DNA of 64,000 bases, taken from contig NZ_CP124620.1 in assembly GCF_030128875.1 (NCBI RefSeq), positions 2,604,001 through 2,668,000 on the forward strand, in the 5' to 3' direction. The notes beneath the pieces were generated by a model. It was not told the DNA's origin, made no database searches, and saw nothing but the letters and a program-made list of their open reading frames with translations. The DNA comes from Stenotrophomonas sp. BIO128-Bstrain (GTDB lineage: Bacteria; Pseudomonadota; Gammaproteobacteria; Xanthomonadales; Xanthomonadaceae). Made by a program: the position numbers and the translations under genes. This document shows, piece after piece, positions 1,313 to 56,562 of this stretch; the first letter of the stretch is position 1; each line of letters begins with the position of its first letter.

Positions 1313-3508
1313 TCACCGGCAAGCCACCTCAGCCACCGTTTGCGCAGCCCCAAGGTCCGCAGGCAGCTGGGCCTTGCAGACCCCTTCCACGTCCACCGTC
1401 TGGCTGGGGCGCGGCTGCTCCAGGTAGAGCACGCCGTCGTAGCCCACCTGGGTGGTCTCGGTCGCCGTCTTGGCCACCGTGCCCGCTTCGATGGCCGGGC
1501 CCGTGAGGCGGAAGGTGCGTGCGGTCTCGGTCAGGACCGGGAAGGTGAGGTGCATGCCGGCTTGGCGGCCAGCGGTGGCGGTTTGCTCGATCTCGGCCAA
1601 CTGGGTGCCCAGTGGCAGCGCCCGATCGTCTACGCGGACCTCGGTGGGCACCATTGGTGTCACCTCGCCCACCACCAGGCGGCCCTGGGCGTTGGTCTTC
1701 CCCACCAATCGGCCGCCCACCCTCACCGGCACCCTGGCTTGGCCGGGCACGTCCACCACGGCGAAGGATTCGGCCGGACCCAGGAACGTCACGCCCTGGC
1801 GGTCCAGGTGAACGGCACCGGCCATCGAACCGGAAGTCCAGGTGCCGCTGGGCCCGTGCTCGGCGTTGATCTGAGCCCACCCTGCCCGGGTGGTCCAGTT
1901 GGCGTTGGCCCGGGCCGTCTGGCCAGCCGCTCCCTCGTCTACCGACAAGGACAAGCCCACCGGGGTTCCAAAGACCGTGGGGCGGGCGCGTCCTTGGACG
2001 GCCCAGGCCGTGGCATCCGGGGCTTGCCGGGCCCTAACGCTCACGCCCTTGCCCCGGCCGAAATCGTAGCTGTAGCCCACCTCCACCCGGGTTTCCTTGC
2101 GCTCCAGATCGCGCAAGGCGGAGACGGCCACGGTGTGCCCGTTGCCACGCCAGGTCAGCCCGGCGTCGGCGTAAGCGGTGCGAAAGCGTGGCGTGCGCAC
2201 GTCCGAATAGCTGGCCCGAAGGGACCACTGGGGCGTGGGCCGCCAGAACACCGAACCCCGGGTGCGCTGCTCCACCTCCACCGCACCGGGGGCGCGCAGG
2301 CGCCAATAGTCCTGCTGGCGCTCGTGCTCCAGGCGCACGCCAAACCTCGGGCCGCGGTAGTCGTAGGCCACGGCCTGCCGTTGGCCGCCTCGCGTGGAGG
2401 TGCCTAGTTCCATGTCCAGCGTGCCATAGGTGCCGAGCACCGTCGTGGCCCCCAACGCCACGTTGGCCTTCCCGTCCGTTGAGGTTTGGGCGGTGCCGCG
2501 CAGGGTCCACCGGTCGTTGAGGCCCCAAGCCACCGACCCGGTCGCGCCCAACGTCCCGTAATCGCTCTCCCCTTGCCGCACCCGGCCGGCCGCGACCTCC
2601 CAAGTGGTGAGCCCTTTGCGGAGCAACGTGGGGGCGACGTAGAAGCGCTGATCGCTCACCACCGTTTCGCGGCCGTAAGGGTCTCGCACGACCACTTGGG
2701 TTTGCTGTGCTCCGGTGCCCAAGGCGCTGCCATCGGCGGTGAACGGCCCTTTCCCCACCCGGCCTTGCAGCACGCGGGCGCGGTTGGCCAAGACCTCGAC
2801 CGTGGCCGGATCGAGCGCCACGCCGCCGAGCATCGGGACCGGATACGTGGGCGTCAACGGGTCCAACGCCCGCGGGTCCTTGGCCACGCGCACCCCGCCC
2901 AGGTTGACCGGCGAGGAGGACGGACCAGCGAACACATCGCCGGCTTGGTAGGTCACCAAGCGGTTGGGATCATCTTTCTGCCAGCGCGTCACGCCGCGAA
3001 CGTAGCCGGTGCCGGCCGTGTCGGTGTTGACCTGCCCGCTGGTGCTGATCACGCCCCAACGCCCCGCCTTGCGGACCTCGTGGCCCAGCGAGAACGCCTG
3101 CTGTTGCTCGGACACCATGCCGGCCACGCTGTAGTTCACCAGCACCCCAGGAGCGGGCGGCGCGATGGGTCCGCGCTCGGTGCGATCACGGGCCACGCGT
3201 TGGGCCTTGAGCCGATCGGCCGGCAGATCCAGGGCGACCGTCGCGGTGGCCTCGTCCACAACAAAGCCCACACCCAACGCTTGGGCGCTCATCGGCTCCG
3301 TTTGACCCGGGGGAAGTTGGAGCCCGACCTCGCGCCACGTGGCCGGCTCGGCGAACCACTGACCGCCTTGCTGCCAGAACGTGAGCGGTTCCGCCTTGGC
3401 CTTGCCGCCGATGACCGGCACCAGGAACGCGGGCGCCACGCCGTCGGGCACCGCTGCGCTGGCCGACGATGCAGCCAGCAACACCAAGGCCAGGGCCCGG
3501 CCACGCAT
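1313..3508 (-). CDS. Fimbrial outer-membrane usher
   Basis: 731 residues with an N-terminal signal peptide (cleavage near SASAAV). The protein is an outer-membrane beta-barrel that receives chaperone-subunit complexes and assembles the pilus. Support: an N-terminal chaperone-binding segment; a middle region with VVVRDPYGRE and YVAPTLLRKGL, typical of the usher plug/barrel boundary; a long series of alternating beta-barrel strands; and a C-terminal domain with two cysteines near the end (EGVCK and EVACR) that could form the usual disulfide. It is somewhat shorter than classical ushers of about 800-850 residues, as is common in spore-coat-U-type (Csu-like) systems. The ATG lies 3 nt after the chaperone stop, so the two are co-translated. 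No adhesin gene follows it, unlike most Csu-type clusters. Confidence 0.9.
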   Translation of the reverse strand: MRGRALALVLLAASSASAAVPDGVAPAFLVPVIGGKAKAEPLTFWQQGGQWFAEPATWREVGLQLPPGQTEPMSAQALGVGFVVDEATATVALDLPADRLKAQRVARDRTERGPIAPPAPGVLVNYSVAGMVSEQQQAFSLGHEVRKAGRWGVISTSGQVNTDTAGTGYVRGVTRWQKDDPNRLVTYQAGDVFAGPSSSPVNLGGVRVAKDPRALDPLTPTYPVPMLGGVALDPATVEVLANRARVLQGRVGKGPFTADGSALGTGAQQTQVVVRDPYGRETVVSDQRFYVAPTLLRKGLTTWEVAAGRVRQGESDYGTLGATGSVAWGLNDRWTLRGTAQTSTDGKANVALGATTVLGTYGTLDMELGTSTRGGQRQAVAYDYRGPRFGVRLEHERQQDYWRLRAPGAVEVEQRTRGSVFWRPTPQWSLRASYSDVRTPRFRTAYADAGLTWRGNGHTVAVSALRDLERKETRVEVGYSYDFGRGKGVSVRARQAPDATAWAVQGRARPTVFGTPVGLSLSVDEGAAGQTARANANWTTRAGWAQINAEHGPSGTWTSGSMAGAVHLDRQGVTFLGPAESFAVVDVPGQARVPVRVGGRLVGKTNAQGRLVVGEVTPMVPTEVRVDDRALPLGTQLAEIEQTATAGRQAGMHLTFPVLTETARTFRLTGPAIEAGTVAKTATETTQVGYDGVLYLEQPRPSQTVDVEGVCKAQLPADLGAAQTVAEVACR

Positions 3509-3511
3509 GGA

Positions 3512-4171
3512 TCACCGCCCCACAGGGACGGTGACGGGCTGGCCGTTGACGGTGATTGAAAGGTTTTCAGCGCGCTGGCCGGGTTGGGTCTCGTAGGTCA
3601 TCGAAGCCCCCGGCAGCGTCCAGCCCAATGCACCCTCGCGCCACGGCTTGCCACCGGCCGGGCCGATGGACGAAACGCGGGCGGCGGTCTGGCCGTGATT
3701 CGTCAAGCGGTATCCATTGGGCACCGCTTGGACGGTCACCTTGGGGACGGGCGCGTTGGCGGCTTCAAAGGCCACGGGCAAGTCCTGGTTGACCAGCAAC
3801 TGGACGCCCTGGGCGTTGGGGTCTTTGAGCTGCATCAGCAGCACGCGGTAGTAGCGCCGCTCGCCCAGCGCGCCCACCCGCATCAACCGAACGGTGCGCT
3901 TGGATTGGGGCGGGACGTTCACAAAGGTGGGCGCCCCCACGATCTCCGTGGTGGGTGAAAACACGTTCTGCCCTGTGGCCTGATCCCACCCCACGGCTTT
4001 CACCTGGTAACGCACCGACGCGTCGCCGCTGTTGTGCAGCGTCACGGCGACGTGCTTGGCCGAGGTATCGGCCATCAGGGTGGTGGGGCCCACGGAGATG
4101 GAACCGGCGGACACCGAAAAGGACAGCAAGGACGCAGCGACCGCGGCCAGGGAGCGTTGGGAATGGGTCAT
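3512..4171 (-). CDS. Periplasmic pilus-assembly chaperone
   Basis: 219 residues with a signal peptide (cleavage near SVSAGS). It belongs to the PapD-like family, which caps pilin subunits in the periplasm by donor-strand complementation and hands them to the usher. The first immunoglobulin-like domain covers roughly residues 25-130 and includes VPPQSKRTVRLMR, equivalent to the conserved region preceding the F1-G1 hairpin; YYRVLLMQLK and a second smaller domain follow. AAGGAG lies just before the ATG at 4171. It sits between the pilin and usher genes and runs with the usher. A hairpin separates it from the upstream pilin gene, so it probably receives less transcript than the pilin. Confidence 0.9.
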   Translation of the reverse strand: MTHSQRSLAAVAASLLSFSVSAGSISVGPTTLMADTSAKHVAVTLHNSGDASVRYQVKAVGWDQATGQNVFSPTTEIVGAPTFVNVPPQSKRTVRLMRVGALGERRYYRVLLMQLKDPNAQGVQLLVNQDLPVAFEAANAPVPKVTVQAVPNGYRLTNHGQTAARVSSIGPAGGKPWREGALGWTLPGASMTYETQPGQRAENLSITVNGQPVTVPVGR

Positions 4172-4252
4172 GGGATCTCCTTTGGGGGTCTCCTTTCAAG
4201 CTAGATCAGAATGCTATTACGTCAACCCATACCTACTCATCTTTTCGACAAC

Positions 4253-4281
4253 AAAAAGCCCCCAGCGCGAACCGGGGGCTT
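4253..4281 (-). terminator. Intrinsic terminator between pilin and chaperone genes
   Basis: On the minus strand AGCCCCC, a 10-nt loop and GGGGGCT are followed by TTTTTG. It lies 30 nt after the pilin stop and before the chaperone gene. Partial read-through would give many pilins per chaperone and usher, as expected for a pilus. Confidence 0.8.
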
Positions 4282-4309
4282 CGGGACAACCGATGGGGAT
4301 CAGTTGTAA

Positions 4310-4810
4310 TCAGTTGTAAGTGGCGGTGACGGTGACCGTATCGGTGTAGTTGCCACCCACGGCCTGCTTGAGGGCGAAGAACTTCAACGCGAATTCGTGG
4401 GTTTGCACAGCACCGTTACCCGTGCCCGCGAACGCATCGGCATCATCGCCCCATGCCTGGGTGCCGGGAATGTCCTTGAACAACCCATACGGAATGAAGG
4501 CACCCGAACCGTTGCTCACGGCGCGGTAGGTCTCGTAACCCGCCAACGCTCCGAAGTTCTGTCCCTGTCCTGGGGAAATGGAGTAAGTGGTTCCCTGGTT
4601 GCACACGATGCTCAACGCAGAGGTTCGGGTGGAGTTGTCAGAAGTGCCCGACCAATCCATGTCCGTGACCGGAGAAACGGACAAGTTGCAGGTGTTGGTC
4701 AGGGTGCCCTGAATAGTCAGGTCTGCGGTGGTGTCGGCGGCGAACGCAGGCAGGGCCAGCGAAGCCAGGGCGACGGGCAGCAGGGCGCGAAGGAAGGTCT
4801 TGCGTGTCAT
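4310..4810 (-). CDS. Spore coat U (SCPU)-domain pilin subunit
   Basis: 166 residues with a clear signal peptide ending near PAFAAD. The mature protein looks like an SCPU-domain (CsuA/B-type) pilin, the polymerising subunit of archaic chaperone-usher pili. It contains TNTCNLSV and LSIVCNQG, the two cysteines expected to form the intrasubunit disulfide, and ends in beta-strand sequence VTVTATYN, as is usual in this family. AAGGAG precedes the ATG. It is the first gene of the three-gene pilus cluster and has its own promoter-like element upstream and a terminator directly downstream. No second subunit or tip adhesin gene is visible, so the fibre may be a homopolymer or use subunits encoded elsewhere. 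Confidence 0.85.
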   Translation of the reverse strand: MTRKTFLRALLPVALASLALPAFAADTTADLTIQGTLTNTCNLSVSPVTDMDWSGTSDNSTRTSALSIVCNQGTTYSISPGQGQNFGALAGYETYRAVSNGSGAFIPYGLFKDIPGTQAWGDDADAFAGTGNGAVQTHEFALKFFALKQAVGGNYTDTVTVTATYN

Positions 4811-10757: not shown

Positions 10758-11786
10758 TCAGGCCACCATCACGTGGCTCCTCTGCCTGGCCTTCTCACGC
10801 GCTTTCGTGCGGGCCTTCGTGCCCTTAGGTTTTTCAAGCTCCTGCTGATTGGCCGCCACAGGCTGCCGCTCCTGCTCAACCTTCGGGAGCGGCTCGCGAA
10901 CCAACTCGGGCACCTTCAGGAACTCCACCACCCGCTCGGCCGCCGCAGCGGCTCGAAAGAGCTCCCGGGGATCGTCCCGGAGAATTTGGATCCAGGACTT
11001 CACGTAAGCCGCGTGCTGGGTGGGATCGTGGCCAATGCCCAGGCGTTCGCCCATCAGCATGGATGACACCTCCGCGACCAGTTCCTCTTTGGCGTAGTCG
11101 ATGCTCCCAAAAGCCCCCTTCTGATCGCGGTTGAGGCGGGTGGGAAAGCCCGTCCAGTGGCCCAGTTCGTGCAACGCGGTGGCGTAGTAGCCGCTGGCCG
11201 AGTGGAAGCTGTTGCGCTGGGGCAAGTGGATGCTGTCCGTCATCGGCCGGTAGAACGCCTGGTTGCCCCCGTCGTGGTGGATCTCGGCCCCGCTCTCCTT
11301 GAGCACCGCTTCGCAGGCCTGATGGACGTCGGGCTCTGGGCGCGGGGCTGGCAGCATCAGTGCCGGCAACCCATCGATCTGCATCGCGTTGAACACCCGG
11401 GGGAAGAAGACCTTGGGGTGGGCCTTGGCGATGAGCTCGGGGTCCCCGCTCTTCTTGGCCTCCTCCACCGGTGACCAATCCCAGTATTCGATGACGCTGG
11501 CTTTCTCGCCTTTGCGAACCTGAGCGCCCACGGCCGCAGCTTGCTTGTAAGTCATCCACCGGTTGTCCTGGCAGTCCCAAGCGCTCTGCAGGGCCCACAG
11601 GTGGAGAAGGTTTCCGCCCCGGTAGCTCTTGCCCGTCGTGGGGTTCATGGGCAACCCGAGGTCCACGCGGGCGTCCCAGCGTTTGAGGAAGGGACCGGTG
11701 CCCTCCTCCATTTGGCGGATCAGGCGTTCGACGACGTCGCGGGAATGGCGCTGAAGGAAGCTTTCGTTGGGGGTGGCATCGGACAC
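10758..11786 (-). CDS. ardC: ArdC-family antirestriction protein
   Basis: 342 residues from a GTG at 11786 with AGGAG upstream. The N-terminal domain (residues about 10-110; LNPTTGKSYRGGNLLHLW-like, then WMTYKQA, then VRKGEKAS) is the ArdC-type single-stranded-DNA-binding domain. The C-terminal zincin-like domain has HELGHWTGFPTRLNRD (HExxH at about 206-210) and EELVAEVSS downstream for the third zinc ligand. ArdC proteins of plasmids and integrative elements protect incoming DNA from host restriction. The C-terminal 60 residues are Lys/Glu/Arg-rich. It fits a mobile element that also carries its own methyltransferases. It ends right before promoter copy C, downstream of the helicase gene. 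Confidence 0.85.
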   Translation of the reverse strand: MSDATPNESFLQRHSRDVVERLIRQMEEGTGPFLKRWDARVDLGLPMNPTTGKSYRGGNLLHLWALQSAWDCQDNRWMTYKQAAAVGAQVRKGEKASVIEYWDWSPVEEAKKSGDPELIAKAHPKVFFPRVFNAMQIDGLPALMLPAPRPEPDVHQACEAVLKESGAEIHHDGGNQAFYRPMTDSIHLPQRNSFHSASGYYATALHELGHWTGFPTRLNRDQKGAFGSIDYAKEELVAEVSSMLMGERLGIGHDPTQHAAYVKSWIQILRDDPRELFRAAAAAERVVEFLKVPELVREPLPKVEQERQPVAANQQELEKPKGTKARTKAREKARQRSHVMVA

Positions 11787-11854: not shown

Positions 11855-12211
11855 TCAATCGCGAATGGTGACGGCGCGTCCCTGCTCCAATAGGTTCTCC
11901 AGCAACGCCAAGGCCCGGTCGATGGTCAAACCGGCGCCAGGTTCTCCGTCGCCCTCCTGGAGCTGCACACGGACGCCATCCGGCGTTCGTTGCACGGTGA
12001 AACGGGGGGAGGCCGCCAAAGCGTCTTGGCGGCCCATGCTGTCGTCTACGAAGGCGTCGGAAGGAGTCATGGCTTCAGCATGCGACGGGATAAGGATTTG
12101 GCAAGCCCGGGCTGGACCGTTAGCGTCACCGACCAATCCATTGGCTCGAGCTGATACGGAAGATGGGAACGCGGATTTGGCCCCGCCTTTACGACCGCCG
12201 TTGGCGCGCAT
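11855..12211 (-). CDS. Hypothetical protein overlapping the helicase end
   Basis: 118 residues from an ATG at 12211, overlapping the helicase stop by 23 nt; an internal ATG at 12070 would give 71 residues and no overlap. The N-terminal part is low in recognisable structure. The C-terminal 50 residues look like a small folded domain (SPRFTVQRTPDGVRVQLQE, then LTIDRALALLENLLEQG). No known family. It probably lies in the helicase operon. Confidence 0.5.
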   Translation of the reverse strand: MRANGGRKGGAKSAFPSSVSARANGLVGDANGPARACQILIPSHAEAMTPSDAFVDDSMGRQDALAASPRFTVQRTPDGVRVQLQEGDGEPGAGLTIDRALALLENLLEQGRAVTIRD

Positions 12212-14120
12212 CCCCATCTCCCACCTTTCCACCACCTTGGGTTTCGCTGCTTTCTCGGCCCGCCAACGGCTCACCGAACAGCGCACGAATCTCCAGTTCA
12301 TTGATACGTTCCTGCAGCTGGAGTTGGATTGCCTGGGCTCTGGCGCGCCCTGCCTCCTCCCTCAACGCATCGGCATGGAGAGCTCCCATCTCAGCCGCCT
12401 GCTGCTGAGCGCTCAAGCGGTCGAATCGACGCTCCATCTCTTCCTGCCGAGCCCCTTGCTGTTCGAGGGAGGGCGCTACATCGGTTTCCCAAGGCTCCAA
12501 AGACTGAGAGCGCTCCTGCGCCACGGGCAGTGCTGTCACGGTCGCCGATGACCTCAACGGCACATCGCTACAGGCCTCGCCTACGGTGGCTGCTCCATTG
12601 ATTCGCAGGCGCACGCATTCTTCCTGTTTGCCGTTGATGCGGCGGTTCGAGCGAGCGCCGTCGTCCAGGCCCATCTCTTTCAAGCCTCGCCAGAACTGGC
12701 GACCGGTGAGGAGATCGATGTCCGCCAGCCCTTGTCGGTAGCCCCAGTTTTTGTAGTTCTCGTAGACCTGCCGCATGGAAAGCGTGCACTCATCCGTCTC
12801 AACACGCACCACGCGCTCGGCCTGAGCCCAAGCCATGACCTGGTCGCTGCCATGGCGGGCGGCCAGCTTCGCCGCGCGCACGGCTTCGGGCATGTCGGCG
12901 TCTGCGTCGGACAACGCCCTACCACGGGCCACGATGCGTCGGGCGCCTTCGAGCATCCAGTCCAGCACAAGCTGGCCTTCCTCTCCCAGGATGTTCTTGA
13001 CCAGATCAGGGTCGTGCTGGTTCACCGGCACTGCTTTCTTCCAATGCACGACGGTGAGGCGGCGCCACACCCCGTTGCTCTTGTCGCGGATGAAGGGCGC
13101 CGAGTTGGACGTGATGATCCACTTGGCCGTGGAATGGTAGCTCGCCAGCTGCTTCTGGTTCTTGCGGTCGATGCCAATGCCATTGCCGGAGACCATCGTC
13201 TTGAACCGACCTTCGGCCCACTTCTCGCACTCCACTTCGTCCACCAGGATCAGGCTGGCGCCGATCATGGGTTCCAAGCTGAAGCGGTCGCCCAAGGTTT
13301 CAAGGTTGCAGCGGGCCACCTGGCGGTGCATGGCTTCCACGATTTCCGCCAAGGTGGATTTGCCGGAGCCTGCGACGCCGTGCCACCAGGCGGCCTGGCT
13401 GTAAACGCCCGGCAACAGGGTCATGCCGCACTGCTCCTGGAGCAGGTCGATGACGCGCGGGTCGTCGTGGGCTTGGCGGAGGAACTTGGCGAAGCGCGAG
13501 TCCGCCGGCAAGGGCTGGGGCTTGTATGCGTGGCCCTGCCTGCCACCACAGGCCACCCTGACCGCGTGGGTCATGCCCAAGGCGGGATCAGGGGCTAGCA
13601 CATGGAAACCGGTGGGAAGGATTTCCACGTAGCCGTCTGCCACCGGCACGATGGCCCGCTTGGCTTGGGTCGGCATGGGGTTTTTCTGGCGCAGCCGAAG
13701 GGAAGCCATGTCCCAGCAGTCCTTAGCGAGCTTGGGGCTGCCCGCGAAGTCGGCGTTGCGGTCGATCCAATCGGATGCCACACCCACACCTTCCGCGTCG
13801 CTGATCGCTTGCCAATAGGTACCGTTCCAATGGTGTACGATCTCGCCGGTGCCGCTGGTGGCTTGGCACGCCCACAAGCGGTCGACGCATTCGGTGGTGC
13901 GGCGGGCAAACAGGATGGGGAGCGAGGGCGGCTTGCGCTGGCCCTCTCGATCAACCGAGTGGCGGTAGATTTGCTTGTGCTCCTCTGCCTCCAGGTTGAT
14001 CTTGCGCGCGGAGGCTTCCGCACCCAGGAAACGCGACGCTTCGAATGGCACGATGTTGCTCGGCTCTTCCGTCGTCGGGTTGACAGCCTTCCCTTTTGGG
14101 GACACATTTGTTGTAGACAT
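12189..14120 (-). CDS. SF3 (D5/P4-type) replicative helicase
   Basis: 643 residues. An SF3 AAA+ helicase core covers about residues 215-400: Walker A GVAGSGKST (248-256), Walker B ILVDEVE (291-297), sensor WIITSNSAPF (334-343) and arginine finger VWRRLT (351-356). This is the phage/plasmid primase-helicase C-terminal type found in phage P4 alpha and poxvirus D5. The N-terminal 215 residues look like the D5 N-terminal region, and I see no primase zinc finger. The C-terminal quarter is a Gln/Glu/Arg-rich coiled coil. It should unwind the element's origin. GAGGAG precedes the ATG. The iteron origin lies about 400 bp upstream, with an RHH gene between, which supports an autonomous replication module. 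Confidence 0.85.
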   Translation of the reverse strand: MSTTNVSPKGKAVNPTTEEPSNIVPFEASRFLGAEASARKINLEAEEHKQIYRHSVDREGQRKPPSLPILFARRTTECVDRLWACQATSGTGEIVHHWNGTYWQAISDAEGVGVASDWIDRNADFAGSPKLAKDCWDMASLRLRQKNPMPTQAKRAIVPVADGYVEILPTGFHVLAPDPALGMTHAVRVACGGRQGHAYKPQPLPADSRFAKFLRQAHDDPRVIDLLQEQCGMTLLPGVYSQAAWWHGVAGSGKSTLAEIVEAMHRQVARCNLETLGDRFSLEPMIGASLILVDEVECEKWAEGRFKTMVSGNGIGIDRKNQKQLASYHSTAKWIITSNSAPFIRDKSNGVWRRLTVVHWKKAVPVNQHDPDLVKNILGEEGQLVLDWMLEGARRIVARGRALSDADADMPEAVRAAKLAARHGSDQVMAWAQAERVVRVETDECTLSMRQVYENYKNWGYRQGLADIDLLTGRQFWRGLKEMGLDDGARSNRRINGKQEECVRLRINGAATVGEACSDVPLRSSATVTALPVAQERSQSLEPWETDVAPSLEQQGARQEEMERRFDRLSAQQQAAEMGALHADALREEAGRARAQAIQLQLQERINELEIRALFGEPLAGRESSETQGGGKVGDGDARQRRS

Positions 14121-14189
14121 TGTTGTTGGCTCCTCTCAAACCCTCGCCCTGGCCGGTGGGGGTTTGTCGTTGTGGGGGGACAGGCTTGC

Positions 14190-14372
14190 TCAGGCAGCGC
14201 GTGGGAGAGCGGTTTCCAAGGCGCGGCGAATGAACTCGCTCTCTGTCATCTCGTTTTCGGCCGCGGCGAGACGAAGGCGTTCCGCCAAGGGGCGTTTGAT
14301 CCGAACGTGCTTTTTCACGCTGGCGCGGATGCTGTAAGTCGGCGGCGATGAGGGATGGGTGGCGGCGTTCAC
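14190..14372 (-). CDS. Ribbon-helix-helix (CopG/Arc-like) DNA-binding protein
   Basis: 60 residues from a GTG at 14372 with GGAG 8 nt upstream. The sequence VKKHVRIKRPLAERLRLAAA followed by ENEMTESEFIRRALETAL has the beta strand, helix and helix layout of ribbon-helix-helix repressors, with the typical ExxMTESEFIRRAL helix. Such proteins often control plasmid copy number. Its position between the iteron region and the helicase gene suggests it represses the replication operon, perhaps through the palindrome at 14403-14422 directly upstream. Confidence 0.75.
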   Translation of the reverse strand: MNAATHPSSPPTYSIRASVKKHVRIKRPLAERLRLAAAENEMTESEFIRRALETALPRAA

Positions 14373-14402
14373 GGTGGCAACTCCGAAGGTGAAAGGTTTG
14401 GT

Positions 14403-14422
14403 GTGTCCCACATGGGGGACAC
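14403..14422. promoter_or_regulatory. Palindrome upstream of RHH gene
   Basis: GTGTCCC, 6 bp, GGGACAC: a perfect 7-bp inverted repeat 31 bp before the GTG of the RHH gene. Its half-site GTCCC/GGGAC is shared with the palindrome at 16595-16612. A likely operator; the protein is unknown. Confidence 0.6.
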
Positions 14423-14518
14423 TTCCACTCAACCACTCCAGGAGCTTTCCGCAACCCACGGTTTTTGACTAAACACGAAAACTGCGGAATCTCTCGCACT
14501 TTTTCCGGAAGCCCTGTT

Positions 14519-14853
14519 CTGCTGGCTTTCCCTTCCCTGCTGGTCTTCCATTAGCCAGCAGAAAGAGAAGACCAGCAGGAAGACCAGCAGCTACAAACCC
14601 TTGATTCCAAAAGCTTTGCATTCATAGAAAACCGTTCCACTGGTCTGCTGGGTCAAAAAAGAATCGGTTTTGAAATTTGAGATACCAACGCTTTCCGTGC
14701 TCTTTGGACGCATTTGCACAGGGGAGTTGAATCGAAAGCCAGCAAGCCAGCAGCGCACTTTTTAGTCGCAGAAATCCCTTGGGATTCAACGACCTTGCAC
14801 TGCTGGTCTTCCTGCTGGCCTTCGATCGCTGCTGGCTAATGGAAGACCAGCAG
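14519..14853. other. Putative iteron replication origin of the element
   Basis: A gene-free stretch packed with the 13-mer CTGCTGGTCTTCC or close variants in both orientations. Copies lie at 14519-14531 (variant), 14537-14549, 14566-14578 and 14578-14590 (inverted), 14800-14812, a variant at 14812-14824, and 14841-14853 (inverted). The two clusters form a long inverted repeat. Arms 14537-14590 and 14800-14853 match at 49 of 54 positions, with the outer 25 bp perfect. The 209 bp between them is much less GC-rich than the surroundings and holds further GCTGGCTT copies near 14740-14755. Clustered iterons beside an SF3 helicase gene are typical of P4-like and plasmid origins. Confidence 0.75.
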
Positions 14854-14863
14854 CCGGAAGTTC

Positions 14864-15127
14864 CTAATCATCTTCGGCCAAGCACTCCAGTTGCTCGCGC
14901 TTGCAATCGGTCAAGAACGGATGCTGAAACTCCCTCCCGGTTTCCACCTCCGTCACCACCACCTCTTCATCAATCGTAAGGGCGCCATGGTGCCAATCGA
15001 TGGCATCCAACTCCGCCAAGGACAGTCGCGCGAATGCCTCCATTGCCTCGGACTGGGTCTGGGCGGAGACCTCAATCACCTTGCTCACCAAGTAGTCACC
15101 CCGGACGACGAATTCGTAAGTTCCCAT
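14864..15127 (-). CDS. Small acidic protein, family member 1
   Basis: 87 residues, strongly acidic at both ends. The core YLVSKVIEVSAQTQSEAMEA is a beta strand followed by a helix beginning SEAMEAFARL. The same layout (hydrophobic strand, V-x-A-x-S-E/D-x-E-A, helix) recurs in the proteins at 15137-15388 and 16273-16506. It is loosely reminiscent of DpnD/PcfM-type small proteins, but I would not name it so. It lies next to the putative origin, so a role in replication control is possible. Confidence 0.65.
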   Translation of the reverse strand: MGTYEFVVRGDYLVSKVIEVSAQTQSEAMEAFARLSLAELDAIDWHHGALTIDEEVVVTEVETGREFQHPFLTDCKREQLECLAEDD

Positions 15128-15136
15128 CGGCTTCTC

Positions 15137-15388
15137 CTAATAGTTGAGGTGGTGGCGCATGGGTGGACACGGCCAGTTGAGATCTTCGCGATCGGAACCA
15201 TCGGGGCTGATGACCTCCACAAATCCGTAGACCTCCTCCAACTCGGTACGCCAACCACCGGCATGAATGTCAGCCACTCCCATCGAGTTCAGAATCTCCA
15301 AGGCTGCCGCCTCTGAGTCCGCGTCGATTCGGATTTCCAATTCGGCCGTCGCGCGGCCCAAGACAACAACGCTCCAGTGATCAGCCAT
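15137..15388 (-). CDS. Small acidic protein, family member 2
   Basis: 83 residues from an ATG at 15388 that overlaps the end of the methyltransferase gene by 8 bp. It has the same layout as its neighbour at 14864-15127: AELEIRIDADSEAAALEILN is a strand, then D-S-E-A-A, then a helix; the rest is acidic, with a Trp- and Pro-rich tail (LNWPCPPMRHH). No known function. Part of one leftward operon with the methyltransferase upstream and member 1 downstream. Confidence 0.65.
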   Translation of the reverse strand: MADHWSVVVLGRATAELEIRIDADSEAAALEILNSMGVADIHAGGWRTELEEVYGFVEVISPDGSDREDLNWPCPPMRHHLNY

Positions 15389-16037
15389 TGGAGCTCCCCT
15401 GGTTCGCAGTGGCCACCTGCGCCACGCGCTGGATGGCAAAGAACTTCCCGCGCAGCACACCGCTTGCCTGCGCTTGCTGAAGGTGACCGGCCGCGCGCTT
15501 GCCGTAAGCCACCACCAACGATCCCGACGGCGCTGCCGCGCCGGTGGTTCCGTCGGGACGCACAAACCTCAGCCTCCCACGGGTGAACAGGATCGCCGTC
15601 GCGTTGGGGTGGGAAAGCACGCAGTCGTGCATCCATCCCGTCTCCATGTTGACCGGCACCAGGGCGATACCGCCGCCGGGGTGGTTTGCCAGCTTGCTCA
15701 GCCACTTCTCCATCCCCTTGCCGTAGGGCGGGTTCGTCCACACGAACGCTTGCGGGGGCCAAGGCGTGAGCAGGCCGTCCTGGCTCGGCGGGATCATTCG
15801 GCGGGCCGTGGGCGCCGGCAGCCGCGACGGGTCTTCGGGCGTGCAAGGATCGAGGTCAAAGCCCCGCCTTCCCCCCAGCGCCCTGACGATGGCAGGCGGG
15901 GTATACCAATCGACGCTCGTGTGGGCCTTGTCGCTGGCCTTGTAGCAAACGGAGGTGAGCCGAGTGGGTTTAGCCGCTGCGAGGCGGTTGGGGCGGTTGG
16001 CAGTCTTGAACGGCACAACATTGGTTTTGGGTTGCAT
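15381..16037 (-). CDS. Phage-type DNA N6-adenine methyltransferase
   Basis: 218 residues. Motif IV is TNPPYGKGMEKWLSKL (NPPY at about 102-105). The upstream DWYTPPAIVRALGG and FDLDPCTPED segments are typical of the phage N-6-adenine-methyltransferase family (phage Dam). VPVNMETGWMHD and ILFTRGRLRFVRPDG follow in the usual places. The enzyme should methylate adenine, often at GATC in this family, and may shield the element from host restriction or regulate origin firing. GGAG precedes the ATG. It stands between small acidic proteins and upstream of the origin. Confidence 0.9.
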   Translation of the reverse strand: MQPKTNVVPFKTANRPNRLAAAKPTRLTSVCYKASDKAHTSVDWYTPPAIVRALGGRRGFDLDPCTPEDPSRLPAPTARRMIPPSQDGLLTPWPPQAFVWTNPPYGKGMEKWLSKLANHPGGGIALVPVNMETGWMHDCVLSHPNATAILFTRGRLRFVRPDGTTGAAAPSGSLVVAYGKRAAGHLQQAQASGVLRGKFFAIQRVAQVATANQGSSNG

Positions 16038-16677: not shown

Positions 16678-17316
16678 TTAGTCGGCGGCTTTCGCGGCGC
16701 TCTCGGCGGCGGAGTGGAGCACGCCCATGGCCCAGTCGTGGAAGGGCTGACGCGCTTCGCTGCTCACCCACGGGGCGTCCAGCGCTTCAAGCAGCGTGAG
16801 CGCACGCGCGGGCAGTTGTGGATGAAGCGAAGCAAACCCCACCAGGCGATCGGCGTCGTTGTAAGCCCAGGCAAGGTCCTTTTTCAGGCCTTCAACGCCG
16901 AGCTTCTTCAGCAAGGCCACGACGTCGTCGAGGCGTTGCGCCAAGACGTTGGGCGGAATGCATTCGGCACCGGCGTAAGGCTCCACGGCTTGAACCAGCG
17001 GCAACGTGGACCGGGTCATGCGTTCGGCACCGCCGCAACGCTCCACCGATGACCACCGGTATTGCGCCCCTTGGCGGTTGCTTTTGACGGGCCTGTATTC
17101 CGGGATCAGCCCTTCGTTTCGTTGCCGGCGCTTCTTCAGCGCGTCCTTCGAGATGCCCAGCATGTAGGCAGCCACGCCAGGGCCGACCCATTCCAGCTTG
17201 CCCGACTTTGCCTTGGACAACTCTTTATCTTCAGCCGCTGTCAACGCCAAGGACTTGGGATCCTTCGGTGGCCGGCCAGGACGCCCGCCCAGAATGTCCG
17301 GATCGCGCGGGCTCAA
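16678..17316 (-). CDS. HTH protein, tandem paralogue 2
   Basis: 212 residues from a TTG at 17316, chosen because AAGGGGG lies just before it and TTGA overlaps the previous stop; an ATG at 17379 is also in frame. A Lys/Arg/Pro-rich head (GGRPGRPPKDPKS) precedes a helix-turn-helix (VGPGVAAYMLGISKDALKKR). The C-terminal half, with LEALDAPWVSSEARQPFHDW, matches LEEALAQPWASTEARQAYQD of the upstream protein, so the two are diverged duplicates. Probably DNA-binding regulators or accessory factors of the integrase or origin. No named family recognised. Confidence 0.65.
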   Translation of the reverse strand: MSPRDPDILGGRPGRPPKDPKSLALTAAEDKELSKAKSGKLEWVGPGVAAYMLGISKDALKKRRQRNEGLIPEYRPVKSNRQGAQYRWSSVERCGGAERMTRSTLPLVQAVEPYAGAECIPPNVLAQRLDDVVALLKKLGVEGLKKDLAWAYNDADRLVGFASLHPQLPARALTLLEALDAPWVSSEARQPFHDWAMGVLHSAAESAAKAAD

Positions 17317-18089
17317 AGCCGCCCCCTTGTTTTTTCGAACGGCCGCACGGGCTTTGGCTCGTGGTTCGCGCTGTCCCACCGCTCTTCCAGATCATTGGCA
17401 AGCTGCCGCGACCGTGCGGCCTCGATCAGGTGCTGTGTGCTGGTGAGCACGGCCACAAACGCATCCTGGTAAGCCTGACGTGCCTCCGTGCTTGCCCAAG
17501 GCTGGGCCAACGCTTCTTCCAAGGTTCCTTCCCACTGGTCCTCATCGGCGGCGTTGAACGTGGTGTCGTCCACCGCCCATGCGTGGCCTGCGATGCGCCC
17601 ACCCAGGGTGACCCAAGGCTGGATCTCCAGCACGTCGGCCAGCGAGGCGTAAGCCACCACGCCCAACCGCCGCGCCCGGGCCCGGGCCTTGGCCAACCGG
17701 TCCTCAGCCTCTTTCAGCGCGATCAAGGCTTCGATGCGTTCGGCTTTGCGGACCACGTCGTCCGCGTCGGTGCGTTTGCCGCGCGTGATGGGTTCACCGC
17801 TGCGGCTGGCCAAGAACGCGTCCAGCGCGTCCAAGCTGAAACCCAGGTGCTGGTTTCGAGCCATCGTGCCGGCCTTTGCCGGGTTCTGCATGGGCTGGGG
17901 CCCTTGGCCTTCGCGCACCCACTCCCTCAAGGTTGTGTGGTGCACGCCGACGTAGTGCGCAGCCGCTTTGGTGCTGATCTTGGCTCGCAACCCTTGTTTG
18001 GCCTCGGCAATCTCCTGGCGCCATTTATTGGCGTCGGTGACCGGCGAGGCGAGATCGGGATCACGTTGTAAGGGGAAAGAGCCATCCAT
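17313..18089 (-). CDS. HTH protein, tandem paralogue 1
   Basis: 258 residues. Residues about 35-65 (AKISTKAAAHYVGVHHTTLREWVREG) form an excisionase/MerR-like helix-turn-helix. A coiled, Arg/Ala-rich middle follows (VRKAERIEALIALKEAEDRLAKARARARR). The C-terminal half shares PWxSxEARQxxxD with the next protein. It starts 20 bp after the integrase stop and overlaps the following gene by 4 bp, so integrase and both HTH genes appear to form one operon. It may set the direction of integration or excision; that is inferred only from position. Confidence 0.65.
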   Translation of the reverse strand: MDGSFPLQRDPDLASPVTDANKWRQEIAEAKQGLRAKISTKAAAHYVGVHHTTLREWVREGQGPQPMQNPAKAGTMARNQHLGFSLDALDAFLASRSGEPITRGKRTDADDVVRKAERIEALIALKEAEDRLAKARARARRLGVVAYASLADVLEIQPWVTLGGRIAGHAWAVDDTTFNAADEDQWEGTLEEALAQPWASTEARQAYQDAFVAVLTSTQHLIEAARSRQLANDLEERWDSANHEPKPVRPFEKTRGRL

Positions 18090-18108: not shown

Positions 18109-19836
18109 CTATTGTTGCGGAGTAGCCGTGTCGTTGCGCGGAGGGAGCAGCGGCCAGTCCACCGGTTTGAGCATGTTGTAGAACGCGGGCGAACTCGACG
18201 CCATCAACTGCTCCACCCGCTGCAGTGCATCCTGGAGTTCAAACCATTCCGGTTCCTGGTAGCGCACCGAGGACTTGGAACCCTCGTCCTCGCCGTCCTT
18301 CTTTTGCGGAAGGTGATTGAACAGCCGGCTGGTGATGCGGTTGGAGATCCCAACGCGCGTTGCATAGCGCCCCAAGGTCCGCCGCAGGTCGTGCGGGGTG
18401 GGCCCAAATTCCACCGACAGCTTTTCCCCCAAGCCTTTCATGATGGCCTTGCTGTCTTTGTAGTGCCCTTCTGCCGCCCGCGAGCTGCGCGCCGGATACA
18501 CCCACCGCCCCCGAGGTTCGTCGACCGGCAGGCGTTGATCAAACCGACGCTTGATGAGCTGGAGCGAGAACGGGCCCAACGGCATGCTGTGGTCGCGCTT
18601 GTTCTTCGTTTTTGCAAAATAAACCTGCGGGCCAGGTTTCTTGGTGAGCGGGTTCACCGACACGCGCCCCTCTCGCCGGGCCTTGGGGTCCATCTCATCC
18701 AGCCACACCCAGGACTGGGTTTCCCGTTCGACCGGGGTGAGCCGGTCGAACCACGCCAGCTTCGCCGTCTCGTTGCGCCGCGCGCCCAGGAACAAGGTGG
18801 TGAGCAGGTAGTAAACCCCGCTTTCGTTCTGCCCCCGCTGGGCTTCTCGCCGGCTCCACAGGTAGTCGATGGCCCGACCCAGCGTGTTGTCTTCGCTCCC
18901 GAGCGGGTTTCGGACGCGGGCCTTCTCGTAGTAGACGTGAAGGCCCGCGGCGTCGCGCATCCGCCCCTCCTCCCACAGCACGCCAAAGTCGTTTCCGAAC
19001 AGCACCGCCTTGCGCTCGGCCTTCTTGGCAGCGCGGGCCTCTTTGTCCACCGCGTAGTTGATCGCCCGAAACGCGGTGGAGAAGGTCTGTTCGGCCGCCG
19101 ACACCCCCGCCGCCCGGATGCGGGTGCGCATGGCCTCACTGTCAACGCCCACCCTGGCCAGCTCTTCGTCGGTGAGCTCCACCCGCCCGGTCCGCGCCAT
19201 GACGTCCTTGATGGCCTGGGACAACCGGTTGGAATGCAAGGCGGCCGACAGGCGGGTGGCCTCGAAGGCTTTGCTGACCTTGTCTTCGTCCAGTTCCATG
19301 ATCGGGGTGTGGCCGATGCCCACCTCCGGCCGCTCCAAACGGGCCATGGAATTGGTCAACGTCTTGAGGGTGCCCGCGGTCGCCGGACGGGTCCGGCGGG
19401 CCAGCATGTCGTGGTAGAGCTGGATCGCTTGGTTAACGGTCAGCGCCTTGGTGGCTTGGATCGACAGTTCCTTCTCCGCCAGTGCCTTGGGGTGCTGCCC
19501 CTCCTTCTTGGCCCCGGCCACCTTCACCCCGGCCAGGTCGTGGGCGTCCTTGAGGGCCAGTTCGCTGGTGTCCCCCACGCTGATTCGCATGACCTTGCCA
19601 CCGATCTTGCGCTGAACTTCATAAGTGGATTTGAGCTTGCCCACGAACACCCCAAACCCAATGGGCGCGCCTGGGGATCCATCGAGGAACCGCCATTGCT
19701 TGCCGTCGGGGTTGGGCTCGAGCACCGCATACCCCTTGGCGTTGGTGACGACCGCACCGCTCTTGTCTAGCTTCGGGCGCAGGGTGCTGCGAAGCTGTCT
19801 CAGCTGTTCAGGGGTGAGCTTCAGTCGGAATGCCAT
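18109..19836 (-). CDS. int: Large tyrosine recombinase (integrase)
   Basis: 575 residues from an ATG at 19836 (AAGGA 11 nt upstream; a GTG 9 nt earlier is too close to it). The N-terminal section resembles the arm-binding domain of P4-type integrases (TYEVQRKIGGKVMRISVGDT). Catalytic residues: Arg in LGARRNETAKL (353/354), HDLRRT (H482, R485), the second His in FNHLP (508) and Tyr in VRYQEPEWF (526). It is longer than the usual 400 or so residues, with a long insert between core-binding and catalytic parts. It lies at the element's right edge next to mutS, where an integrase beside its attachment site is expected. All catalytic residues are present, so it should be active. Confidence 0.9.
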   Translation of the reverse strand: MAFRLKLTPEQLRQLRSTLRPKLDKSGAVVTNAKGYAVLEPNPDGKQWRFLDGSPGAPIGFGVFVGKLKSTYEVQRKIGGKVMRISVGDTSELALKDAHDLAGVKVAGAKKEGQHPKALAEKELSIQATKALTVNQAIQLYHDMLARRTRPATAGTLKTLTNSMARLERPEVGIGHTPIMELDEDKVSKAFEATRLSAALHSNRLSQAIKDVMARTGRVELTDEELARVGVDSEAMRTRIRAAGVSAAEQTFSTAFRAINYAVDKEARAAKKAERKAVLFGNDFGVLWEEGRMRDAAGLHVYYEKARVRNPLGSEDNTLGRAIDYLWSRREAQRGQNESGVYYLLTTLFLGARRNETAKLAWFDRLTPVERETQSWVWLDEMDPKARREGRVSVNPLTKKPGPQVYFAKTKNKRDHSMPLGPFSLQLIKRRFDQRLPVDEPRGRWVYPARSSRAAEGHYKDSKAIMKGLGEKLSVEFGPTPHDLRRTLGRYATRVGISNRITSRLFNHLPQKKDGEDEGSKSSVRYQEPEWFELQDALQRVEQLMASSSPAFYNMLKPVDWPLLPPRNDTATPQQ

Positions 19837-19885
19837 GGCGACCACTGTCCTTTGGGTGAATGTCGCGGCACGCTGCCCGGTGCCG

Positions 19886-19942: not shown

Positions 19943-20013
19943 TACAATAGCCTCCAAACCCTTCCACTAGCACCTACTCACCACCACTTCCGTCTCGTGC
20001 GAATACGCTCTAA

Positions 20014-22629
20014 ATGACTGATAAAAAAGAACAATCCAAAAAATCAACGGTCTCGTCAGAGCATACGCCACTCATGAAGCAGTTCTTCGCCGCCAAGTCC
20101 GATTACCCGGACCTGCTGCTCTTCTTCCGGATGGGCGACTTCTATGAGCTGTTCTACGACGACGCCCGCAAGGCGGCGCGGCTGCTGGACATCACCCTGA
20201 CCCAGCGCGGCAGCTCCGGGGGCGCGCCGATCCCGATGGCCGGCGTCCCGGTCCACGCCTACGAAGGCTATCTGGCGCGTCTGGTCGCCCTGGGCGAGTC
20301 GGTGGCGATCTGCGAGCAGATCGGCGACCCGGCGCTGGCCAAGGGCCTGGTGGAACGCAAGGTGGTGCGCATCGTCACCCCCGGCACCGTGACCGATGAA
20401 GCGCTGCTGGACGAGCGCCGCGATACGCTGCTGATGGCGCTGTCGCGCGGCAAGCACGGCTACGGCCTGGCCTGGGCCGATCTGGCCGGCGGCCGCTTTT
20501 TGGTCAACGAAGTCGATTCGGACGATGCGCTGGAAGCCGAGCTCGCGCGTTTGGAACCGGCCGAGCTGCTGGTGCCCGATGAAGAAAACTGGCCGGCCTT
20601 CCTGCAGTACCGCAGCGGCATCCGGCGCCGTGCGCCCTGGTTGTTCGATGCCGACAGCGGCCGCCGCCAGCTGCTGAATTTCTTCAAGCTGCACGACCTG
20701 ACCGGGTTCGGCATCGACGACAAGCCGCGCGCCACCGCCGCCGCCGGTGCCCTGCTCGGCTATGTCGAAGAAACCCAGAAACAGCGCCTGCCGCACCTGA
20801 CTGCGATCGCCACCGAAACCGCGAGCGAAGCCATCGCCATGAACGCGGCCACGCGCCGCCATCTGGAGCTGGATACGCGCGTCGATGGCGATACCCGCAA
20901 CACCCTGCTCGGTGTCCTTGACACCACGGTGACACCGATGGGCGGTCGCCTGCTGCGGCGCTGGCTGCACCGCCCGTTGCGCATGCGCGAGGTGCTGGTG
21001 CATCGCCACGATGCGGTCGCCACGCTGATCGACCGCGGCGCCGACAGCGACGTACGCGATGCCTTCCGCGCCCTGGGCGATCTGGAACGCATTCTTACCC
21101 GCGTGGCCCTGCGCTCGGCGCGCCCGCGCGATTTCTCCACGTTGCGTGATGGCCTGGGCCTGCTGCCGGACGTGCGCGCGGTGCTCGCCCCGCTGGACTC
21201 GCCGCGCCTGATCGCCCTGCACGATGCGCTGGGCTCGCATGACGAATGCGCGCACCTGCTGGCCAGCGCGATCGCCCCGACCCCGCCGCTGAAGCTCAGC
21301 GATGGCGGCGTCATCGCCGAAGGCTACGACGCCGAGCTCGATGAGCTGCGCCGCCTCTCCACGCATGCGGACCAGTTCCTGATCGACCTGGAACAGCGCG
21401 AGCGCATCAGCAGCGGCATCGCCACGCTCAAGGTCGGCTACAACCGCGTGCACGGCTACTACATCGAAATCAGCAAGGGCCAGTCGGAGAAGGCACCGGT
21501 GCATTACACGCGCCGCCAGACGCTGACCAATGCCGAGCGTTACATCACCGAGGAACTGAAGTCCTTCGAGGACAAGGTGCTGTCCGCGCGCGAGCGCTCG
21601 CTGAGCCGCGAGAAGTTCCTGTACGAGCAGTTGCTGGACATCCTCGCCAGCGGGCTGGAGCCGCTCAAGCAGTGCGCGGCGGCATTGAGCGAACTGGACG
21701 TGCTGGCCGGTTTCGCCGAGCGTGCGCAGGCGCTGGACTGGGCGCGCCCGGAACTGGAGACCGCGCCCTGCCTGAAGATCGAGCGCGGGCGCCATCCGGT
21801 GGTCGAAGCAGTACGCGAGCAGCCGTTTGAACCGAACGACCTGGACCTGCATCCGGACCGCCGCATGCTGGTGATCACCGGCCCGAACATGGGCGGTAAA
21901 TCCACCTACATGCGCCAGAACGCACTGATCGTGCTGCTGGCCCACATCGGCAGCTTCGTGCCGGCCAGCCGCGCGGTGATCGGCCCGATCGACCGCATCC
22001 TGACCCGCATCGGCGCCGGCGACGATCTGGCCCGCGGGCAATCGACCTTCATGGTCGAGATGGCCGAGACCAGCTACATCCTGCACCACGCCAGCGCACA
22101 GTCGCTGGTGCTGATGGACGAGATCGGCCGCGGCACGTCCACGTACGACGGCCTGGCGCTGGCTGATGCGGTCGCACGCCATCTGGCTTACCAGAACCGC
22201 TGCTACACGCTGTTCGCCACGCACTATTTCGAACTGACCGCCCTGGCCGACGAACAGCACCAAGGCGGCGCCAGCAGCATCGCCAACGTGCACCTGGATG
22301 CGGTGGAGCACGGCGACGCGCTGGTGTTCATGCACGCCGTGAAGGATGGCCCGGCCAACCGCAGCTTCGGCCTGCAGGTGGCCGCACTGGCTGGCCTGCC
22401 GAAATCGACCGTCGCCCAGGCGCGACGTCGCTTGGCCGAGCTGGAGCAGCGCAGCCACGAGACGCAGTCCGCCGTGGTGGACGCGCAGGCGCTGGATGCA
22501 CCGCAGCAGTTCGGGCTGTTCAACGCGCCCAACACCGCTGCCCAGGACGCGCTGGCCGCGATCGATCCGGACGAGCTGACCCCGAAGCAGGCACTGGAAG
22601 CGCTGTACCGGTTGAAGACACTGCTCTGA
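20014..22629 (+). CDS. mutS: DNA mismatch repair protein MutS
   Basis: 871 residues, full length for the family. It binds mismatched and looped DNA and recruits MutL. The N-terminal mismatch-binding domain has [11 protein letters not shown] with the Phe-Tyr-Glu motif (about 43-45). The C-terminal ABC-type ATPase has Walker [12 protein letters not shown] (about 623) and [15 protein letters not shown]. The mobile element ends about 70 bp before its ATG, so the native promoter region may have been replaced or altered by the insertion. Confidence 0.98.
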
Positions 22630-56486: not shown

Positions 56487-56562
56487 TGGTGCCGGAAATA
56501 GGAATCGAACCTACGACCTACGCATTACGAATGCGCCGCTCTACCAACTGAGCTATTCCGGC
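56487..56562 (-). tRNA. thrT: tRNA-Thr (anticodon CGU)
   Basis: 76 nt with encoded CCA. Acceptor stem GCCGGAA/TTCCGGC, D-arm GCTCAGTTGGTAGAGC, anticodon stem GCGCA/TGCGT around loop TTCGTAA, T-arm GTAGG-TTCGAAT-CCTAT. Anticodon CGT reads ACG (Thr). No integration is seen at its 3' end. Confidence 0.95.

Follow-up and report, generated by a model that had tools for sequence, protein, structure and literature searches.

What is the function of the cluster of short repeats at positions 14519-14853 of the 64,000-nucleotide stretch of Stenotrophomonas sp. BIO128-Bstrain DNA analysed here (the window), which lies next to a gene for a D5-type superfamily 3 (SF3) helicase? The sequence comparisons reported below indicate that this segment is very probably the replication origin of an integrated ~82-kb island of the integrative conjugative or integrative mobilizable element (ICE/IME) type, organized like the origins of phage-inducible chromosomal islands (PICIs) and initiated by the helicase of the island itself. 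This reading is supported by the fact that the repeat array accompanies the D5/SF3-type helicase in all 13 scorable loci of its near family, that a blind search of 398 genomes found helicase-linked copies only, and that a region of the Escherichia coli island EcCICFT073 that is reported to support plasmid replication has the same mirror geometry. As such, an original prediction from the DNA letters, namely the origin of an integrated element with a helicase of this type, is the best-supported explanation.

The array is made up of the following parts:

14519..14853, no strand: proposed origin, with 13 iteron-like sites sharing an [AG]CTGG core, best copies CTGCTGGTCTTCC, mirror axis 14695.
14519..14590, no strand: outer cluster on the side of the ribbon-helix-helix (RHH) and helicase genes, with an outlying extra site at 14519 followed by four mirrored sites.
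14594..14606, minus strand: match to the consensus of integration host factor (IHF), WATCARNNNNTTR, one of 3 in the window.
14639..14651, plus strand: inner tandem site pair, 8-bp phased, the first copy degenerate (CACTGG).
14652..14738, no strand: 87-bp central spacer separating the inner pairs, candidate melting region.
14739..14751, minus strand: inner tandem site pair, 8-bp phased.
14800..14853, no strand: outer cluster on the Dam-methylase side, with four mirrored sites.

Twelve of the 13 [AG]CTGG sites form six mirrored pairs about one common and exact axis (14695.0), and only the site at 14519 falls outside. From the outside towards the centre, each half consists of four sites, a gap of ~50 bp and two sites 8 bp apart, with 87 bp separating the two facing inner pairs. 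The original prediction had described a 13-mer and its variants repeated in both orientations, and our count of the sites is higher than the one it gave. Its complementary arms were reproduced, as 14537-14590 agrees with the reverse complement of 14800-14853 at 49 of 54 positions (perfect runs of 25 and 19 at the two ends), and so was its GC-poor core of 209 bp, since the GC fraction of 14591-14799 is 0.459 compared with 0.656 for the window as a whole and 0.57-0.575 for the 200 bp on either side. Repeats scattered over the host chromosome, which would have spoken against an origin, were not observed. CTGCTGGTCTTCC has 4 exact copies and CTGCTGGTCTTC has 5, all within the array and none elsewhere in the 64-kb window; across the 4,487,389 bp of the genome, the exact 13-mer was found at 4 places, all in the array (reversed control pattern, 0), and a BLAST search of the segment against the genome returned the segment itself and its two self-complementary arms only.

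For chance scoring, a site was strictly defined as an exact 6-mer, which finds 12 sites in the array, 10 of them mirrored. Dinucleotide shuffles of 14481-14900 (n = 500) yielded 0 (263 shuffles), 2 (234) or, at most, 4 (3) mirrored sites, and no more than 4 were found in ten 12-kb control pieces, seven of which came from the 94 kb to the left of the window (partly the same element) and three from the window beyond 22 kb. When 12 sites were placed at random in 330 bp, six mirrored pairs were reached once in 20,000 trials.

A search for the helicase in 199 related genomes gave 24 with a match, our own included, and genome contigs gave 8 loci. A profile search across the class matched in 9 of 369 genomes and added remoter P4-type helicases only, and plasmid and phage collections yielded nothing but distant helicases, none of which covered 80% of the query. 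The near family, defined by a helicase identity of at least 45%, comprises 13 scorable loci including our own, leaving out L038/L097, where the contig runs out ~260 bp upstream of the helicase, and L049, which coincides with L039. Each of the 13 carries 11-14 sites, 6-12 of them mirrored, ~0.25-0.75 kb upstream of the helicase and with the RHH gene in between. In the group with 47% identity, the site tail GTCTTCC is replaced by GTTAAC or similar and the layout is kept. Of this group, L039, L044 and L046 have their outer pairs on a common axis and their inner pairs on a second one 11 bp off, which is about one helical turn; the corresponding shift in L095, computed by hand, is 11.5 bp, and L040 and L041 lack one inner site. 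In an alignment of the relatives, conservation is among the highest in the columns of the inner 8-bp-phased pairs, and the spacers have diverged.

The blind search looked in 398 genomes of the order for the pattern of two inner pairs separated by 80-110 bp, yielding 4 loci in 3 genomes, all adjoining this helicase (reversed control, 0). One of them was a previously unseen locus in G437, from another genus of the family, with a 6+6 array. The exact pattern overlooks members with a mutated inner site, so that G006, which bears the array of L041, scored 0; viral contigs gave no match. Beyond the near family, four distant helicases (25-33% identity) also have upstream arrays, with unrelated site sequences: ACCCCGGAC in L047 (10 of 10 sites mirrored), AGCCCGTGCA in L015/L108 (10 of 11), TGAGTAGGG in L048 (4 of 10, or 8 of 10 at tolerance 4) and GGGTGTAAC in L016/L109 (4 of 7). 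The site sequence has turned over with the layout retained. The sites per half number 6+6 in our array (plus one), L037, L039, L044 and L095, 5+5 in L047 and 6+5 in EcCICFT073.

Several observations weigh against an origin of this kind. Some of the 13 near-family loci are near-identical and several are closely related, and they are not independent cases. The position of the RHH gene is equally conserved (13/13), and its product could bind the array too. By the strict score, L048 (4/10) and L109 (4/7), whose symmetry is only loose, do not exceed control. Nor does anything in the 5-10 kb examined at 18 loci whose P4-type helicases are larger or remoter (L110-L127), where at most 4 sites were mirrored. 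The residues that separate the helicases of the two site groups are scattered, with most in 51-100 (13 of 56 columns, gap columns included), and pin down no iteron-binding domain. Lastly, our array lies 5' of the RHH-helicase operon, whereas the EcCICFT073 origin lies 3' of rep, a departure from the PICI arrangement.

The proposed initiator and the surrounding features are:

12189..14120, minus strand: DUF5906/D5-type SF3 helicase, 643 aa, proposed initiator.
14137..14166, minus strand: hairpin-forming repeat between the RHH and helicase genes, immediately before the helicase start.
14190..14372, minus strand: RHH (CopG-like) protein, with a probable start at a GTG near 14372 (listed open reading frame 14190-14459).
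14403..14422, no strand: candidate operator for the RHH protein, a palindrome (GTGTCCC-N6-GGGACAC) that lies upstream of its gene and differs from the sites.
14864-15127, minus strand: small gene, function not assigned, on the other side of the array from the RHH gene.
15381..16037, minus strand: Dam-type adenine methylase, a frequent neighbour.
10758..11786, minus strand: ArdC-like gene downstream of the helicase, a conserved neighbour.

The helicase has the D5-type AAA+ fold, and its nearest solved relative by sequence profile is the SaPI5 primase-helicase. D5-type structures align with it from model residue 62-65 on, with ~60 residues preceding. Pfam detected no primase domain in it, and it is not a primase-helicase fusion of the P4 alpha type. 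The helicase of L037 has an apparent second copy of the winged-helix-like region, judged by eye in the alignment, after ~residue 510 (L037 10001 onward).

We infer that the segment starts replication, and a possible course of events is as follows. Once the element is excised from the chromosome, its D5/SF3-type helicase would bind the sites, and one hexamer might be loaded on each mirror half, using the outer four sites and the inner 8-bp-phased pair, presumably to form a double hexamer. The helicase would subsequently melt the AT-rich centre and unwind in both directions, with host enzymes probably priming and copying the DNA bidirectionally. Neither of two further suggestions of the original prediction, an origin plus copy-control pair and a cruciform, is needed.

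The alternative that survives best, although we regard it as improbable, is that the array is a multi-site operator at which the RHH protein represses the RHH-helicase operon in the manner of CopG or omega. RHH proteins are able to bind iterated sites, and the RHH gene lies between array and helicase at every near-family locus (13/13). Against this, in most relatives examined, the RHH gene is preceded by a palindrome of its own that has no relation to the sites: GTGTCCC-N6-GGGACAC in our locus, L034 and L035, a near-identical one in L036, and a different one in L039, L040, L041, L044 and L046, with none found in L037 and L095. As this palindrome is unlike the sites, the RHH protein is most likely an autoregulator of the RHH-helicase operon, which would leave the sites to the helicase. 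Moreover, L037 has the same sites as our array, yet the presumed DNA-contacting strand of its RHH protein seems to differ; an operator would not need as many as twelve mirrored sites, spread over 317 bp around an AT core; and the EcCICFT073 region of this geometry is an origin. The helicase itself may be subject to a further level of control. The hairpin at 14137-14166 (minus strand) is conserved at the same place in L036, L037 and L095, and its outer stem, paired by eye, is CAAACCC/GGGTTTG in our locus versus CAATCCC/GGGATTG in L037, a compensatory change, and this conservation suggests RNA-level control of the helicase.

Further features of the element that carries the array are:

17313..18089, minus strand: excisionase/regulator-like helix-turn-helix protein.
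18109..19845, minus strand: tyrosine integrase of the element.
20071..20083, plus strand: core CTCATGAAGCAGT of the right att, within the 5' end of mutS.

The left att is another copy of CTCATGAAGCAGT, with AGCGGCGT after it, at genome position 2542187, outside the window, and the two copies give an element of ~82 kb with its right end within the mutS 5' end. The same left end, with one base different in the core, is present in G005 and G057 and gives elements of roughly 79 and 86 kb. The same-species genome G199 provided no usable empty site, its mutS-upstream DNA being without a match in our genome (G000), and thus the element ends rest on the att copies. A tRNA attachment site was rejected, as the sole tRNA of the window is at 56487-56562 and the att lies in mutS. 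Genes for a TrwC relaxase and a TrwB coupling protein are located near the left end and, together with the integrase and att ends, make a conjugative or mobilizable island of the ICE/IME type the best reading of the element. The TrwB gene is ~63 kb from the helicase gene, and in the eight relative elements that have both on one contig they are 27-77 kb apart; all 13 helicase-bearing genomes queried gave TrwB relatives, those of G107 and G437 being weak (24-26% identity) and on other contigs. A TraD/TraG-like protein of 993 aa is encoded besides TrwB, and no mating-pair (type IV secretion) genes were identified among the element proteins scanned, which are part of the gene set. The P4-like satellite with which the original prediction had compared the element is ruled out by the ~82-kb size, by TrwC and TrwB (from the same scan) and by the P4 ori and crr repeats, which have no mirror axis; for the same size and genes, and on the part of its gene set that was scanned, the element is not a small phage satellite of the PICI kind with packaging or interference genes.

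Other observations concern the element and its surroundings. The first codons of mutS (20014-20083) come from the element end; in most genomes of the genus, the match begins no earlier than ~14-20 codons into mutS and the upstream sequences inspected are not the same, so that mutS looks like a hot spot at which islands swap its N-terminus. A tandem neighbour to the left of the window (genome 2511398-2542187) is a second island with a MobA/MobL relaxase and an att-like copy (2 mismatches). Inside the element, usher, PapD-type chaperone and SCPU-domain genes at 1313-4810 form an apparent pilus cargo cluster, parts of which have similar DNA in L035 and L036. Matches to the IHF consensus occur at 14594-14606 (origin), 20011-20023 (near the mutS att) and 1191-1203, that is, 3 in 64 kb versus 0.64 expected, and 3 of 100 shuffles reach 3.

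The gene content of the island bears on two further explanations. The array might serve the RHH protein as a partition centromere, comparable to parC of R1, in which two iteron sets flank a promoter. The adjacent RHH gene, the two site clusters and a ParA-like ATPase encoded in the element (60.6 bits, under the family's curated cut-off of 180; window -38893 to -38216) fit this idea, but the ParA-like gene is ~53 kb away, centromeres usually adjoin their par genes and the array tracks the helicase at 13 of 13 near-family loci, making a centromere very unlikely. Slightly less credible still is an oriT bound by an RHH accessory protein such as TrwA. Such proteins do act at oriT, the element encodes TrwC and TrwB and an ArdC-like gene is nearby; however, an oriT is normally beside the relaxase operon, the TrwB distances given above place that gene far off in this and related elements, and the geometry matches that of a replication origin. 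That the array is a recent, functionless inverted duplication of one arm, as the 49/54 identity of the arms might suggest, can practically be dismissed, given mirror spacing that persists in relatives with diverged spacers and different site sequences and conservation across 47%-identity relatives.

An origin with mirror layout and a same-fold initiator in a family of large islands with a relaxase would tie together the replication modules of conjugative elements and of phage satellites, and it predicts that the islands multiply after excision. Such origins, similar in geometry but different in site sequence, also form a natural series in which the loading of SF3 initiator helicases on duplex DNA becomes testable. 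Here we speculate, tentatively and with the odds rather against so broad a statement, that mirror-symmetric SF3-helicase origins form one class across phage satellites and conjugative islands, in which the geometry is conserved and the sites are freely replaced. Each half would have about six sites, an inner 8-9-bp-phased pair and an outer group on fixed helical faces, and with six per half, two opposed hexamers might land with one site for each subunit.

Among known systems, phage P4 shares with our element a D5-type helicase of a mobile element, and its type 1 repeats occur in both orientations, with tandem copies 9-11 bp apart. However, P4 is an 11.6-kb phage satellite and ours an ~82-kb island, and P4 crr consists of two direct 120-bp repeats, unlike our mirror array, so that the origin is not of the P4 type; the annotated type 1 repeats of ori and crr have no common axis, with at most 2 mirrored pairs on any axis. 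The P4 alpha protein carries a primase and is annotated as a DNA primase, whereas none was found in our helicase. SGI1 resembles our element as an integrative mobilizable element with its own rep and an iteron oriV; the passages on this oriV (PMC7433901) describe four direct repeats of 17 bp plus a putative DnaA box downstream of rep, and mention no mirror array. The literature searched, in which subscription journals were thinly covered, showed no such origin in an ICE.

The closest likeness is to EcCICFT073, through which alone the PICI/SaPI origin geometry was compared, and which we located in the E. coli CFT073 record by its position and its genes. Located 3' of its primase-helicase gene are 11 GGTAGA sites, 10 of which form five pairs about an axis at 29123.5 of L129, a mirror symmetry measured in this analysis and not a published criterion. 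The layout is mirror-symmetric in both, the tandem pairs being 9-bp phased there and 8-bp phased here, and both place an element-encoded D5/SF3 helicase beside the origin. The two helicases show weak kinship (23% identity, E 2e-7 in a single comparison). Our helicase differs in having no primase domain and in the RHH gene between it and the origin, the site sequences are unrelated, the innermost gap is 87 bp here and up to 103 bp in L039 versus ~25 bp in EcCICFT073, and our element is an ~82-kb island with TrwC/TrwB genes and not a phage satellite. In the sections of the EcCICFT073 study that describe its origin (PMC6092414), two iteron sets flank an AT-rich region, as they do in our array, and plasmid maintenance in E. 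coli was obtained with a segment containing rep and ori and was abolished or reduced when rep or ori was deleted. The mirror layout, otherwise described from islands that parasitize phages, appears here in a large mobile island.
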